Shown in pieces: positions 3,163 to 19,593 of a DNA stretch of 31,868 bases. This DNA is from a virus, in IMG/VR virus record IMGVR_UViG_3300035698_007796, positions 1 to 31,868 of that record; one strand, given 5' to 3'. Made by a program: the position numbers and the translations under genes. Within the stretch, counting starts at the first letter, position 1. Each line of letters begins with the position of its first letter. Under the pieces are notes generated by a model. It saw only the letters and a list, made by a program, of their open reading frames with translations, was not told the DNA's origin and ran no database searches.

Positions 3163-4565
3163 GCAACACACTCCTCAAGTTCTGCGTAAGCTCCAAGTAT
3201 AATTACCTTTACAGGATCTGTAATAACAATTCGAATAATCCTATTTCTCGTCTTACCCATCCTTCTCCAAACCGCTCTACAGTCGTACTTTCCAATTTTT
3301 CCTATGCTTGTCCAGTGCTCATTTGACCAAGTATGTCCACCATCATCTGACCATTGAAGAGCAACTTGTGGATCAGAACCTTGTCCAGTAATAAGTCCAA
3401 CACCACTCTCAAAATCAATTTGTAGTCTATGCCAAATAACATAAAACATTTCCTTGTTAGTTATTTGACTTGCTCTAATTCTTTGAATTTCGTTCGTGTT
3501 ATCTGCGTATGTATCTATGTCAAGTTGGTACAATTTACCATTCTCATAATCTCCAACAATATAAGAATTTCCAAATTTACCTATACAATTAGATCTATGC
3601 CTACCCCAAATAATTCCACTAGCATAACTTTCCCACTCATGCCAAAAATTAGTCGTAACATCAAAGACCCAGGTTTTACCTTCTGTAGGAAATATTAAAA
3701 CATAAAATATGTGACCAAGCATTTGATAACTATAAGCTCTTGCGTCACTAGTTGTACTATATAAAGAAATTTGGTAATCTATTTGTGAAGTAGATATCGT
3801 TTCAAACTGATAACCTTTAGTCCGTACTACTCGCTTTTCTGTTGAAAGCCAATAAATAACACCATTAATTTTTACAGCTGATGCTGCTGCCTGTATTCCA
3901 AGTTCTAGAATAGCACCAGAAATTCGTAGAAAGGGAAAATCAGCATCCCCAGAATTATAAAAAACTTCTGCTACTTTATCACCAAAAATCCACAGATCAT
4001 GAGCATTAGAAATTACTACTTGAGCATCATCAGGACTAGCTTCAGCAGTACTAAACTCAAGTGCTTCCCAAGTAGTACCATCGTAAAGTCCTGAAATGTA
4101 TATACGACCAGTATCAGTTTTTGTTACGATAAAGTAACCATCTTGAAAAGTTACACTTGAAGCCTTAGGAAAATCATCGTCAGCAATAATAGCAAGTACA
4201 CCAGCAGTTATTAAATAACCATTATCTGTACCATCAACAATAATTACCTCCGTTCCATTATCAGCAAAGAATACATTTCCAGTACTTGTATCTATAGTTC
4301 CGATACTTGTTGCGACTCCAGCTGTTGTTACTGAATACACAGTCTCAGCAGTAACAACATATAAAACACTACCAAATTCGTACATACCTCTTGCTGCAGC
4401 AGTAACACTAAAATCACTAAATTCTACTAACCCAGGAGTGCCGTATAAAGCTACTACATTTTTTGCGTCTTGTTGGTCAACAACAGGAAATAGATTTACA
4501 CTACGCTGAGCGTTAAGATTCTTACTATAACCAGTATATGCTCCACCCACAAAAGGAATTTCCAC
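3159..4565 (-). CDS. P22 gp10-like tail hub / packaged-DNA stabilization protein
   Basis: 468 residues, close to the roughly 470 of P22 gp10, which closes the portal channel after packaging and joins gp4 to the tail needle and spikes. The N-terminal YGTPGL segment (about residues 41-46) and LQWSDDGGHTWSNEHW (403-418) are the family hallmarks I recognise. The rest is beta-rich, as expected for the hub. The start is GTG at 4565, preceded by AGGAG at good spacing; no better ATG lies upstream. It follows the gp4-like gene by 12 bases and overlaps the fibre gene by 4, in the P22 order portal, scaffold, coat, gp4, gp10. The family call is strong; the exact partner for the next joint (a gp26-like needle) is not visible here. 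Confidence 0.88.
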   Translation of the reverse strand: MEIPFVGGAYTGYSKNLNAQRSVNLFPVVDQQDAKNVVALYGTPGLVEFSDFSVTAAARGMYEFGSVLYVVTAETVYSVTTAGVATSIGTIDTSTGNVFFADNGTEVIIVDGTDNGYLITAGVLAIIADDDFPKASSVTFQDGYFIVTKTDTGRIYISGLYDGTTWEALEFSTAEASPDDAQVVISNAHDLWIFGDKVAEVFYNSGDADFPFLRISGAILELGIQAAASAVKINGVIYWLSTEKRVVRTKGYQFETISTSQIDYQISLYSTTSDARAYSYQMLGHIFYVLIFPTEGKTWVFDVTTNFWHEWESYASGIIWGRHRSNCIGKFGNSYIVGDYENGKLYQLDIDTYADNTNEIQRIRASQITNKEMFYVIWHRLQIDFESGVGLITGQGSDPQVALQWSDDGGHTWSNEHWTSIGKIGKYDCRAVWRRMGKTRNRIIRIVITDPVKVIILGAYAELEECVA

Positions 4566-5293: not shown

Positions 5294-5671
5294 TTATTCC
5301 TCTTTGTCAGGTTGGTCAATTTTTGACGCATTATCTGAACCACTAAATGCACCTTTAAGCAAATCACTAAAAGATTTCTTTTTCTCCTCTGTTTCTATCT
5401 CTTCTACTTCTCCTTCTTCTCCTTCTTCTAATCTTTCTTCCCACACTTTTTCATGTCCAGAAAGTAACTGTACCTTACCTGGATGGTCTACCCAACCAGC
5501 TGAATCAAGTTCTGCAAGAGCTTTATCAGTTTTAATAACTCTACCAGCTTTACAATCTTTGTGGTATCTCCATGCTGGTGCGTTTTTTTGTTTCTCTTCT
5601 ACAACAGGAATTTGCCTTGCTAAAGCTTCATAATCAATTCCAGACCCAAGTAATTGATTTTTACTTACCAT
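5294..5671 (-). CDS. Acidic phage structural-region protein with YHKD/GWVDHP module
   Basis: 125 residues. The middle part has a compact motif, WRYHKDCKAGRVIK (about 33-46) and then LDSAGWVDHPGKV (about 55-67). This kind of module is frequent in small proteins of phage virion clusters, often with a GWVDxP signature. The C-terminal half is strongly acidic (Glu runs around 80-97) with a Lys patch, so it is probably disordered. It sits between the coat region and the tail accessory genes, overlapping the upstream gene by 11 bases. SD GAGGTGGAAG precedes the ATG. I know no biochemical function; a minor virion or assembly role is inferred from location only. Confidence 0.6.
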   Translation of the reverse strand: MVSKNQLLGSGIDYEALARQIPVVEEKQKNAPAWRYHKDCKAGRVIKTDKALAELDSAGWVDHPGKVQLLSGHEKVWEERLEEGEEGEVEEIETEEKKKSFSDLLKGAFSGSDNASKIDQPDKEE

Positions 5672-5987
5672 CTTCCACCTCCATAAATTTCTCCCAAAAG
5701 ATCATATGATTCTCTGTAAGTTTTTCTTGTTGGTCTAGAGTTTTCAATCCACTTATAATAAGTTTGGTAACAACTTCACCAAACGTAAATTTTTTGTCAT
5801 CAACTACTCCATCTTTCCAGTGTAGCTGTGTTCCATTTTGTCTAAACTGAAGTAATTTATTTTCTTCTTCGGTAAAGGATAAATCTTCTTTCACTTTTCT
5901 AAGAAGTTTAAGGTTTGCATAATTACCTTCTGCCGGTAAAACTTGTGATAGTAAAAATCTTTCAATAACACCCAATTTCATTTCCAT
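5661..5987 (-). CDS. Small phage protein of unknown function
   Basis: 108 residues, mainly helical. It contains LPAEGNYANLKLLRKVKEDLSF followed by EEE (about 17-42, given here as one continuous helical stretch) and a Trp-containing C-terminal helix. It starts with ATG at 5987 after CAGGAG and overlaps the next gene by 11 bases. It is the first gene after the structured RNA at 6019-6070, so its translation start lies about 30 bases downstream of that element. The NYANLKLLRKVKEDL pattern recalls small proteins encoded near capsid genes of other phages, but I cannot name a family. Confidence 0.6.
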   Translation of the reverse strand: MEMKLGVIERFLLSQVLPAEGNYANLKLLRKVKEDLSFTEEENKLLQFRQNGTQLHWKDGVVDDKKFTFGEVVTKLIISGLKTLDQQEKLTENHMIFWEKFMEVEDGK

Positions 5988-6018
5988 TTTAATCTCCTGT
6001 AATTACTCCTGGGTTAAA

Positions 6019-6070
6019 CCGTGAGAAACTGACCAGGAATCAGCTTTCGAGTCATGACTCTATCTCACGG
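6019..6070 (-). ncRNA. Three-way-junction RNA element, copy B
   Basis: On the minus strand, closing stem P1 is CCGTGAGA with TCTCACGG (8 pairs). Inside lie UA, hairpin P2 GAGU-CAUG-ACUC, GAAAG, hairpin P3 CUGAU-UCCUG-GUCAG and UU. The layout and single-stranded bases match the copies at 12513-12557 and 19524-19593 while the stem sequences differ, so pairing rather than sequence is conserved. It sits between the stop of the 307-residue gene and the start of the 108-residue gene. Confidence 0.65.
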
Positions 6071-10289: not shown

Positions 10290-12285
10290 CTTTACTCTCC
10301 TTTACACTCATAGCAAATTCACCAGCTTTAAGTTGCATACTTTGAACAATAGCAGCTAGTTTTGCATTCTCTTGCTCAAGCTTAACCTGCGCTTCTTGTA
10401 ATTGAACTTGTGAATCTTGCAAACCAATCTGAGCTTCTTGTAGACTAATTTCACCTTGCTGTAATTTAAGTTGACCTTCCTGTAGTTTCAATTCACCCTG
10501 CTGCAATTTTAGTACCTCTTCGGGTGGAGGTGGCGGAGGCGGAGGAGGTGGCGGAGGTGTACCACCAGCCTTAATGATTGCTTTATTCTCAATCTGTTTC
10601 TTAATTTCTGGAGGAAGAAGAAACTCCAGGCGTTTAGAAACATCATCAGCCCCAGGCCAGTCCATAGCCTTAGCGTACAAATCACCAATTAATGGTGCGG
10701 CGTCTGGGTAATATTGAATAAACTCTGACATTGATTCTCTCGCTTCAGTTCTCTGAGTTGTGAAACTCGGTCCGACCGAGATAACGATATCATACGTTCC
10801 TACAGAAAGGTCATTCTGAATTTTTGTGCTGCCATTTTCAGTTATTTCTTTATTAACAGTTGCAAATTCTTGATCACCATCATCAAGACCAAGTCTAATT
10901 ATTCTTTCAGTATCAAGAATCCCAGGAGCTACATCAATAAGTATTCTCCCAAGATGTTCAATAGACCTTGATAAATTATCTATGAAAGCAAAAGTTCCAA
11001 CATCACCTTCTTTTTTTCTTTCGACTATAGCTTTTCCACTTCTCTCATTACTCTGCATACCCATTGAAGCTTTTTGCAGCCCAATAGTATCACGCATTTC
11101 TTGATCGGCATTCTGAATCCGCTCAATCATAGCAGTTGACGCTTGTGGAGGCGGTTCTCTATGTGGCCACCCTGGAGCCTTATCATCAAAATTAACAAGT
11201 AAATATGGGTAATTCTTTGTGTGCGCATTTTTCCACTGTTTTTCATGACCAGAAATTTGTGCTGGCGTAACTAAATAAGGAACCTTAGGCTGCAGAGCAA
11301 CTACTTCAGTATCACTTGATTGCCAGTAATTATACATTCTTTGAGAATCTTTACCGTGTCTAATCAGCCCACGAATAACTCGCTTACCACCAACATTTAA
11401 TTCTTTCCCCCAGATAGGTACTACAGGAATGTATTTTTTACCAACCCATTTTTTACGATCAAGAACTTTATCTCCAGATACTAGGTACCACATAATGTTA
11501 TAAGATTCTACTATACGCTCACCTTCTACAACATCACCTTCCTCTACTTGCTTTACTGTTCTTCCATCAGCTAAAAAATAGATGATAGTTTTGGTCGGTT
11601 CTTTAACAAAGTACTCAGCAAGTAATACAGTATCTTTAGTTGCCCAACCATCTACGTATTGACTATTGGCAGTATTAAATGGCATAGGAGCTGTTTTATA
11701 TTTTTCTTCATACTCTTCACGATCTATATCAGTAATAATTATACAGTACGAAGCATCTGAACAATCGTACTCACTATGCTTACCCCAGTAAATTGCCAGA
11801 GCATTATCTATTTTTTCTATGTAGGCTTCTTGATCACGAGAAGTATCGTCTACATACTTAGTAACTACTCGCATAGCACCATAGCCACAAGTAACAGCAT
11901 GCTCAAAACCATGATCAATAGCTACATCAGATTTAGAAATTGCTTGCACGTGCTTAATCCAACCACCAAGAATCCTTGCAACTTCAATATCCCCATCAGA
12001 ATCAACCGGAACAACTTTGATTGCTGGCCGATTCATTCTTTGATCACCAACTACTTGATCAATATACGCAGGCATTTTATTAATAGTAAGGCAAGGCCTA
12101 CCATCAGAAGTTCTCTGAGCCTGCAAATCTGCTGGCCACTGAGCCCCTTCAATACCAACAAATTCAAGATCTTCTAAAGCTACCTTACGGTTTTCATCAT
12201 CATCACCGTCCTGAGCTTTCTTCAATCGATCTTGAATCTCTTTAAGTAGCTTAACGTCCGCTTCTGTTTTTGCTTTTGCAGTCAC
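10270..12285 (-). CDS. P22-like portal protein with polyproline and 7-residue-repeat tail
   Basis: 671 residues, near the roughly 725 of P22 gp1. The portal is the dodecameric channel at one vertex through which DNA is packaged and ejected. Typical segments are the N-terminal GIEGAQWPADLQAQRTSDGRPCLTIN region (about 44-69, with the conserved W and RP), NRPAIKVVPVD, HGFEHAVTCGYGAMRV (about 122-137) and QRMYNYWQSSDTE. A run of 12 prolines (577-588) then leads to eight 7-residue units of form LQxxxLx (594-649) and a charged end. The start is GTG at 12285 overlapping the preceding stop by one base. The proline run should need EF-P for efficient translation. The tail replaces the helical barrel end of P22 gp1 and may not share its fold. 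Confidence 0.9.
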   Translation of the reverse strand: MTAKAKTEADVKLLKEIQDRLKKAQDGDDDENRKVALEDLEFVGIEGAQWPADLQAQRTSDGRPCLTINKMPAYIDQVVGDQRMNRPAIKVVPVDSDGDIEVARILGGWIKHVQAISKSDVAIDHGFEHAVTCGYGAMRVVTKYVDDTSRDQEAYIEKIDNALAIYWGKHSEYDCSDASYCIIITDIDREEYEEKYKTAPMPFNTANSQYVDGWATKDTVLLAEYFVKEPTKTIIYFLADGRTVKQVEEGDVVEGERIVESYNIMWYLVSGDKVLDRKKWVGKKYIPVVPIWGKELNVGGKRVIRGLIRHGKDSQRMYNYWQSSDTEVVALQPKVPYLVTPAQISGHEKQWKNAHTKNYPYLLVNFDDKAPGWPHREPPPQASTAMIERIQNADQEMRDTIGLQKASMGMQSNERSGKAIVERKKEGDVGTFAFIDNLSRSIEHLGRILIDVAPGILDTERIIRLGLDDGDQEFATVNKEITENGSTKIQNDLSVGTYDIVISVGPSFTTQRTEARESMSEFIQYYPDAAPLIGDLYAKAMDWPGADDVSKRLEFLLPPEIKKQIENKAIIKAGGTPPPPPPPPPPPPEEVLKLQQGELKLQEGQLKLQQGEISLQEAQIGLQDSQVQLQEAQVKLEQENAKLAAIVQSMQLKAGEFAMSVKESKDAEGKE

Positions 12286-12476
12286 TATATATCCTCTTTA
12301 ACTACACCAACACTATTAATAATGCGAAATAAGTCCCGTACATATTTTTCAGGAGTCTTTGATTCCCTAATCTTTTTATACATCTCAGCAGATATTCTAT
12401 TATACTGCCACACAATTTTAGTATTGTACTTAACAAAAAGAGATTTCTTTTCTTCGTCATATCTAATTATTTCCAT
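12285..12476 (-). CDS. KTSC-domain-like small protein
   Basis: 63 residues. The pattern of Y-D-E-E-x-x-x-L-x-V-x-Y, W-x-Y-x-x-I, M/Y-x-x-x (residues 6-35) and then a Y-V-R-D-L-F-R end (44-50) fits the KTSC domain, a small beta-alpha fold common in phages and bacteria. It is sometimes fused to RNA- or nucleic-acid-related domains, but its activity is not well defined. It follows the structured RNA at 12513-12557, with SD AGGAGG about 20 bases before its ATG, and its stop overlaps the GTG start of the portal. Confidence 0.6.
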   Translation of the reverse strand: MEIIRYDEEKKSLFVKYNTKIVWQYNRISAEMYKKIRESKTPEKYVRDLFRIINSVGVVKEDI

Positions 12477-12512
12477 TATACTGAACCTTCAATAACCTCC
12501 TAATTAAAAATA

Positions 12513-12557
12513 GGAAAGTAGTGGAGTTACTACCTTTTGGGCTGCAGACCTATCCCC
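12513..12557 (-). ncRNA. Three-way-junction RNA element, copy C
   Basis: On the minus strand, P1 pairs GGGGA with UUUCC (two G-U pairs). P2 is GGU-CUGCA-GCC and P3 is GUAGU-AACUCC-ACUAC. Joining bases are UA, CAAAA and UU, as in the other copies. P3 has a different sequence from copies A and B but still pairs perfectly. It starts 6 bases after the terminase stop codon. Confidence 0.65.
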
Positions 12558-12563
12558 ACTTAG

Positions 12564-18879: not shown

Positions 18880-18966
18880 AACGGGGTTGACTGGGCAGGA
18901 AACATGCCCGGGAATTAGGACTGAATGAAAGTATATGTTTCCTGTCTAAGATATTACAACCCCGTT
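18880..18966 (-). ncRNA. Large intercistronic RNA hairpin with internal stem
   Basis: On the minus strand the outer stem pairs AACGGGGTTG (18957-18966) with CAACCCCGTT (18880-18889) and includes part of the HNH-AP2 stop codon. An inner stem pairs CAGGAAACAT (18935-18944) with ATGTTTCCTG (18896-18905). Both are 10 perfect pairs. The inner loop contains a 15-nt complement to the end of the HNH-AP2 coding region, so an alternative hairpin or a pseudoknot is possible. Confidence 0.6.
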
Positions 18967-19501
18967 AAGAAGAATAGAGCTTAGAATTTCCACTTTCATT
19001 CAGTCCATTTATGTGCTTACAAAAATCTACCGTATTTATTCCGTCAACTTCATTTAAATAAGCAAACTCACCAAATAACGTAATCGCTCCTACATTATAG
19101 GCTAAGGCTGCTTCAACTTCATTATCATAACTTCCAAGACAAATTGATTTATTACCTAATGAAATATAAACTTGAAACTTTAATGTACCCTCTCTCCAAG
19201 TTACTCCTTTATACTGTCTACCGTAATTTGGTCTTGAATTCCACTGATTTTGTGCTCTAGTGCAATTTCTTAAATTACTTCTTTGATTATTAAGTCCGTT
19301 ATGATCTTTATGATCCACATGTATATTACTGTCAGGATTCATAATTAATCTATGCATTAAAATATGCTTACCATCAGACTTTAGTAAACTATACCAAGTA
19401 GTATGTCCTTTATGAGCACACCACTTATACTGGTTTAACCATTCAAAATCTTCGTCGTCAACAAGTACCACTTTATCTTGAGTTAGTTCTATTTCTTTCA
19501 T
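18965..19501 (-). CDS. HNH-AP2 free-standing homing endonuclease
   Basis: 178 residues. The HNH core is MHRLIM (49-54), HVDHKDHNGLNNQRSNLRN (61-79) and TRAQNQ (81-86), with His50, Asp63/His64 and Asn75 or Asn79 as probable metal and catalytic residues. Residues about 98-150 (YKGVTW, VYISLGNKSICLGSYDNEVEAALAY in parts, FGEFAYLN) form an AP2 DNA-binding domain. This pair is classic for selfish phage homing endonucleases that nick a site in genomes lacking the gene. It sits between the candidate small terminase and the second HNH gene, with structured RNA on both sides. The flanks may mark the insertion. Confidence 0.9.
   Translation of the reverse strand: MKEIELTQDKVVLVDDEDFEWLNQYKWCAHKGHTTWYSLLKSDGKHILMHRLIMNPDSNIHVDHKDHNGLNNQRSNLRNCTRAQNQWNSRPNYGRQYKGVTWREGTLKFQVYISLGNKSICLGSYDNEVEAALAYNVGAITLFGEFAYLNEVDGINTVDFCKHINGLNESGNSKLYSS
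18992..19006. repeat. 15-bp inverted repeat arm in the HNH-AP2 3' end
   Basis: ACTTTCATTCAGTCC on the plus strand, the exact reverse complement of 18918-18932 inside the downstream RNA structure. It codes for part of the C-terminal tail (GLNESG). Confidence 0.85.
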
Positions 19502-19523
19502 AGTGTATTCCTTTCACTCTTCC

Positions 19524-19593
19524 TAAGTTAGATGGGGAAACTGATGGAAGTATCAGCTTTCAGGCTCGAGACCCTATCCCCAACTTTAACTTA
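19524..19593 (-). ncRNA. Three-way-junction RNA element, copy A
   Basis: On the minus strand P1 is TGGGGA with TCCCCA, extended outward by TAAGTTA with TAACTTA, which contains the stop codon of the terminase-small gene. P2 is GGU-CUCGA-GCC and P3 is CUGAU-ACUUCC-AUCAG. The joining bases UA, UGAAAG and UU match the other two copies. It lies between the small terminase and the HNH-AP2 gene. Confidence 0.7.

Follow-up and report, generated by a model that had tools for sequence, protein, structure and literature searches.

The analyzed stretch (the window) comprises all 31,868 nt of the IMG/VR record IMGVR_UViG_3300035698_007796, positions 1 to 31,868. Three RNA elements (named A, B, and C) lie on its minus strand, each situated between the stop codon of one gene (19591, 12564, and 6086, respectively) and the start codon of the following gene (19501, 12476, and 5987). 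The first-pass annotation had described three minus-strand copies with the same three-way-junction fold, and all of them were located, at 19582–19533 (A), 12558–12511 (B), and 6070–6019 (C); the interval that it gave for A, 19524–19593, contains the element but also includes its flanks. In element A (19533–19582), helix P1 (19582–19577/19538–19533) is followed by a UA joint, the P2 hairpin (19574–19562), a GAAAG joint (19561–19557), the P3 hairpin (19556–19541), and the bases UU. The P3 loop L3 (UACUUCCA, 19545–19552) is an anti-Shine–Dalgarno (anti-SD) loop with two partners on the same strand. It can form 5 bp with site 1 (GGAAG, 19519–19523), its predicted pseudoknot partner or anti-anti-SD, and 4 bp with site 2, the GGAA (19511–19508) that serves as the SD in the loop of the hairpin P4 (AGUG[AAAGGAAUA]CACU, 19502–19518). 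The ATG at 19501 then opens an HNH endonuclease gene (18965–19501, minus strand; phrog_99, 2.1e-33; Pfam HNH_3).

Element C (6019–6070, minus strand) is built in the same manner, with P1 at 6070–6063/6026–6019, P2 at 6060–6049, GAAAG at 6048–6044, and P3 at 6043–6029. Its L3 (UUCCUGG, 6033–6039) can form 6 bp with site 1 (CCAGGA, 6007–6012) and 5 bp with site 2 (CAGGA, 5999–5995), the SD in the loop of P4 (UAAUU[ACAGGA]GAUUA, 5990–6005), and the ATG at 5987 starts a 108-aa protein of unknown function (5661–5987, minus strand) with no Pfam or PHROG match. Element B (12511–12558, minus strand) has an imperfect P1 and an L3 (UAACUCCA, 12522–12529) whose CUCC can form 4 bp with site 1 (GGAG, 12497–12500), and neither a site 2 nor a P4 is convincing in it. 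The two-site pattern within the window is thus clear in C, moderate in A, and hardly present in B, which is probably degenerate. Behind B, between the terminase and portal genes, lies a small 63-aa ORF with a KTSC domain (12285–12476, minus strand; Pfam KTSC, 5.2e-7), possibly left over from a mobile gene insertion that has since been lost. Each window copy carries a 6-nt palindrome in its P2 loop (CUCGAG, CUGCAG, and UCAUGA), a feature that is not general in the family. We dropped the idea of kissing dimers via these loops because the palindromes are missing from other phage copies, such as those with GGGUCAUUCCC (L096) and GGGUCGCUCCU (L099).

A descriptor fitted post hoc to A, B, and C gave exactly three matches when both strands of the window were scanned, whereas 50 shuffled versions gave no match. 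The folding-energy z-scores were −1.2 for A, +0.3 for B, and −2.7 for C; for B, the three-way junction is not the fold of minimum energy. Single-sequence folding energies are too weak as proof of the fold, and homologues were therefore needed. We collected the IMG/VR relatives of the portal, the coat protein, the terminase, and a 307-aa protein, scanned the collection with three DNA joint patterns, and built two covariance models, R1 from three copies and R2 from 17 sequences. R1 recovered B (44.5 bits, E 4.1e-9) and C (38.1 bits, E 2.8e-7), both outside its seed, together with many phages. R2 scored 64.3 bits for A (E 6.9e-17) and 45.9 bits for B (E 4.8e-11), both of which are in its seed, and 50.8 bits for C; altogether it gave 94 matches, 75 of them distinct, from 86 sources, and several phages carry two copies. 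Scanning bacterial genomes by pattern produced 28 matches, none convincing under R2; a marginal one in Streptomyces (L161) reached 22 bits.

In the R2 alignment of the 75 distinct copies, 98.0% of the cells hold standard pairs, compared with 65.6% after shuffling, and 12 of the 14 pairs change on both sides. The covariation score was 0.798, against 0.170 for shuffled alignments and at most 0.136 with partners slid, values to be read with two caveats: the structure was imposed on the alignment, and some letters of the joints and of P2 were preset in the search patterns. These patterns put no constraint on the outer P1 pairs, on P3 and L3, or on the sites and genes downstream. Amid the variable helices, the joint letters GAUA, GAAAG, and UUU are invariant, some of them preset by the search patterns. 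These data show that A, B, and C belong to a large RNA family whose covariation is very strong. The covariance-model search of viral metagenomes proposed by the first-pass annotation thus bears out its view that compensatory stem changes mark a selected, recurrent RNA fold; its description of the joints as fixed holds generally but was slightly overstated for B, which has a CAAAAG joint besides the imperfect P1.

The first-pass annotation had described neither the L3::site 1 pseudoknot nor the SD hairpin P4. Across the family, L3 is complementary to a site 1 that typically starts 5–10 nt 3' of P1, such that a pseudoknot can form. The longest Watson–Crick run of L3::site 1 averages 5.69, compared with 3.58 with downstream regions swapped at random among the elements (1000 permutations, maximum 3.97), and runs of at least 5 bp occur in 64 of 74 phage elements (permuted mean, 11.6). 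Site 1 is followed by P4, a hairpin with the SD in its loop and its 3' end directly ahead of the start codon. A P4 score of at least 10 was found in 75% of 71 elements but in only 21% of 545 other ORF starts at the same loci (p = 1.6e-18). The SD loop of P4 is in turn complementary to L3, with a mean run of 4.79 against 3.65 permuted (maximum 3.96) and runs of 5 bp or more in 42 of 73 phage elements against 11.2 permuted (maximum 21). This site 2 complementarity arises partly from a compositional constraint on L3 and the SD, which the permutation control retains, and it spans 4–6 bp in many copies and merely 3–4 bp in a few (L096 and L230). Clear examples are UAUCCC with GGGAUA twice (L209), UUGGUCG with CGACCA and GACCAA (L222), and CUCCAG with CUGGAG twice (L220). 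At least three L3 nucleotides are common to both pairings in 64 of 73 phage copies and in 45 of 51 bacterial copies of the int-alpA family described below; hence, only one pairing should form at a time. The duplex energies of sites 1 and 2 are −8.2 and −6.6 in the phages and −8.2 and −7.3 in int-alpA, and the pairing with site 1 is stronger than or equal to that with site 2 in 56 of 73 phage copies. Plain sequestration of the SD by the pseudoknot was rejected, since site 1 mostly lies upstream of a separate SD.

In nearly all copies of the phage and int-alpA sets, a start codon follows P1 by 26–47 nt. Among 69 phage copies, 32 have a TATAAT-like −10 hexamer 2–13 nt ahead of P1, as do 18 of 51 genome copies, whereas control windows further upstream contain 9–12 and 2–6, respectively; the commonest gap is 3–6 nt in phages and 5–7 nt in genomes. 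P1 therefore often starts at about the start of the transcript. The three copies of the window are intercistronic, unlike these promoter-started copies; the structural-operon setting pointed out by the first-pass annotation holds in this phage, but elsewhere the element is a 5' leader of mainly nuclease genes. Nucleases of the HNH, GIY-YIG, and endonuclease-VII types make up about 44 of 70 downstream genes in phages, a raw count that sums 27 of 30 genes scanned singly, 10 with NUMOD4, the genes behind A and in L112 (also scanned singly), and five called by similarity alone (L146, L208, L255, L248, and L231). Glycosyltransferase, SieB, Bro-N, and KTSC genes were found as well. A putative glycosyltransferase (sequence only) lies behind the element in L096 (5462–6255) and a family 2 glycosyltransferase in L101 (3137–4243), while SieB-like and Bro-N genes lie in L228 (10670–9927) and L235 (5493–6234). 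The leader is consequently not limited to nucleases. Relatives of the 108-aa protein behind C are likewise preceded by the element in L067, L117, and L212. A TnpB-like transposase gene follows the element in L263 (2–478, minus strand). L067 also contains a long, perfect-looking hairpin (GAGUGUUUAGAGCU...AGCUCUAAACACUC, 4510–4565) between the coat gene and the following gene. Among isolated phages, the element occurs upstream of orf23 in Pseudomonas phage D3, directly after the terminase gene in Vibrio phage PS15B-5, and ahead of an endonuclease in Dulem virus 33.

The first-pass annotation did not recognize the family. An Rfam scan of the homologous loci revealed that elements at the same positions exceed the cut-off of int-alpA RNA (RF02996) in 7 of 30 records of the phage set, at 37–51 bits: L124 (38.8 bits), L233, L252 (47.1 bits), L208, L209, L228, and L256. 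The copies of the window themselves gave no RF02996 match in a scan of the whole window (E up to 5), with A alone (E up to 10), with C alone, or in G000. The arrangement P1–UA–P2–GAAAA-type joint–P3–2 nt–P1' is common to the Rfam consensus, to 51 genome copies of int-alpA, and to the phage copies, and the P3 loop can pair with the 3'-terminal part of the RF02996 model, as in the phage copies. However, the window and most phage copies go undetected by Rfam, and P1 and P2 meet as GAUAGGG in the phage copies instead of the GCCUAGCC in int-alpA. In addition, int-alpA adjoins an integrase gene (and alpA), whereas the phage copies precede nuclease or phage genes; no integrase/alpA neighborhood was found for the window copies, which instead stand in the virion operon, ahead of an HNH gene, a KTSC gene, and a gene of unknown function. 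Searching the int-alpA loci with R2 recovered two (L346, 3e-5; L356, 5e-4), plus L319, and missed most. The window copies are divergent int-alpA relatives, linked via intermediates such as L124, but are not members by the Rfam criterion.

Of 151 genomes from the order containing Methyloglobulus, 84 carry RF02996, so that a phage-restricted reading of the element was discarded. The 51 distinct int-alpA copies parsed from those bacterial genomes served as a test set, independent because the ideas of two sites and P4 had been derived from the phage set. In these copies, the mean run is 5.98 for site 1 (3.89 permuted, maximum 4.22) and 5.39 for site 2 (4.28 permuted, maximum 4.67), and P4 is found in 68% compared with 34% of control starts (p = 1.5e-5). 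Rfam assigns int-alpA the type 'Gene; sRNA'. With the same two sites and SD hairpin in its copies, the published family as a whole appears to work in cis, as a leader that controls translation, and not as an sRNA. The literature searched named int-alpA only in a list of predicted E. coli small RNAs, and no known function was found. The 42 proteins encoded immediately after int-alpA leaders (L288–L360) are mutually unrelated, almost all without a Pfam or PHROG family, and occupy what resembles an orphan-gene slot; a common role of these genes in anti-phage defence was rejected because PADLOC matches few of the 42.

We propose that the element acts in cis as a 5' leader in which competing L3 pairings control translation of the next gene, mostly of homing endonuclease type, and give this reading a probability of roughly 0.68. 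One anti-SD loop with two exclusive partners, one of which is the SD, follows the logic of a classical translational switch. The three-way junction of P1, P2, and P3 presents L3. In the presumed ON state, L3 would form the pseudoknot with site 1, which is usually the stronger pairing and is transcribed first, leaving the SD loop free; in the OFF state, with the junction or the pseudoknot unformed, L3 would kiss the SD loop and, together with P4, lower ribosome binding. The ON and OFF assignment could be reversed, and P4 alone may control initiation without kissing. The balance may be shifted by a ligand, as in the sensor idea of the first-pass annotation, or by a protein, ribosome traffic, temperature, or folding kinetics. 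Translation is the step at which we infer control, mostly over homing endonuclease-type genes whose dose or timing would have to be limited.

The evidence for a translational switch also has to be set against other roles for the same fold. The junction and the L3::site 1 pseudoknot might instead act as a 5' mRNA protector that blocks 5' decay by RNase J, or a 5'-end-dependent RNase E step, with the SD complementarity being secondary. The xrRNA-like topology, in which L3 pairs directly behind P1 of a P1-P2-P3-P1' junction, the position of P1 near the transcript start in many copies, and the SD that stays free when site 1 is paired are all consistent with this role. We consider it unlikely, as it does not account for site 2 in the SD hairpin, whose covariation with L3 is seen in both independent sets; a literature search found no relevant report of an xrRNA or RNase J block in bacteriophage. 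On account of site 2, the roles suggested by the first-pass annotation (stabilization of mRNA ends, cleavage by an RNase, or binding of a virion protein) are not favored; a complementary site within the SD hairpin points to translational control. The invariant joint letters within variable helices, some preset by the search patterns, and the occurrence of the element in many unrelated phages and ahead of many unrelated genes could also be expected of an operator for a specific RNA-binding protein of phage or host, the two L3 pairings being part of the binding-site architecture. This reading seems quite improbable to us; the downstream proteins belong to unrelated families, which excludes simple autoregulation by the downstream protein as a general rule. 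It is more doubtful still that the element is a trans-acting small RNA, freed from the 5' end, whose anti-SD loop pairs with other mRNAs. The Rfam type and the promoter directly before P1 in many copies agree with such an RNA, but L3 covaries with two cis sites of its own leader, the start codon nearly always lies within about 25–50 nt behind the element in both sets, and no terminator was noticed behind the element in the copies read by eye.

Beyond the translational switch itself, we tentatively raise the speculative possibility that many unrelated phages and prophages, as well as mobile nuclease genes (HNH, GIY-YIG, endonuclease VII-like, and TnpB-like transposase), have taken up a single ligand- or state-sensing switch class to gate the translation of selfish genes, the orphan int-alpA being a widespread switch of the mobile gene pool. 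Int-alpA gains a concrete proposed mechanism that can be tested in isolated phages such as Pseudomonas phage D3 (orf23) and Vibrio phage PS15B-5, and its range widens greatly, to homing endonuclease leaders and structural operons. If the proposal is true, phages and prophages restrain selfish nuclease genes at translation, and a new ligand-sensing RNA may be hidden here.

Several known RNA systems resemble the element in part. In line with the first-pass annotation, which had found the hammerhead-like joints incomplete, it is not a hammerhead ribozyme: the CUGAUGA core joint next to GAAA is absent, UA follows P1 in the window copies and the homologues read, and Rfam gave no hammerhead match. 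In the Mu-gpT-DE RNA (RF03012), the SD ahead of a phage gene likewise has a pairing partner, but there is no three-way junction; the model matches C only weakly (16.7 bits, E 0.065; cut-off, 49 bits), through the SD and ATG letters. The flaviviral xrRNA is a three-way junction whose P3 loop pairs just 3' of P1 and which blocks Xrn1. The likeness is one of topology, and the present element is not from an RNA virus and has an extra site in the SD loop. The expression platforms of translational riboswitches use competition between anti-SD and anti-anti-SD pairings. The element shares this competition logic, although here the likeness covers the competing-pairing architecture alone, as read from the sequence; its anti-SD is located in an apical loop that would form a pseudoknot or a kissing pair, and no ligand is known. 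In the case of T4-type homing endonucleases (I-TevI, I-TevII, I-TevIII, segB, and mobE), a leader hairpin hides the SD and limits translation, and these single hairpins are escaped via a late promoter inside (PMC2988022). The present element would likewise restrict the translation of phage homing endonucleases through a leader RNA structure, but here a separate three-way junction carries the anti-SD loop together with a competing decoy.
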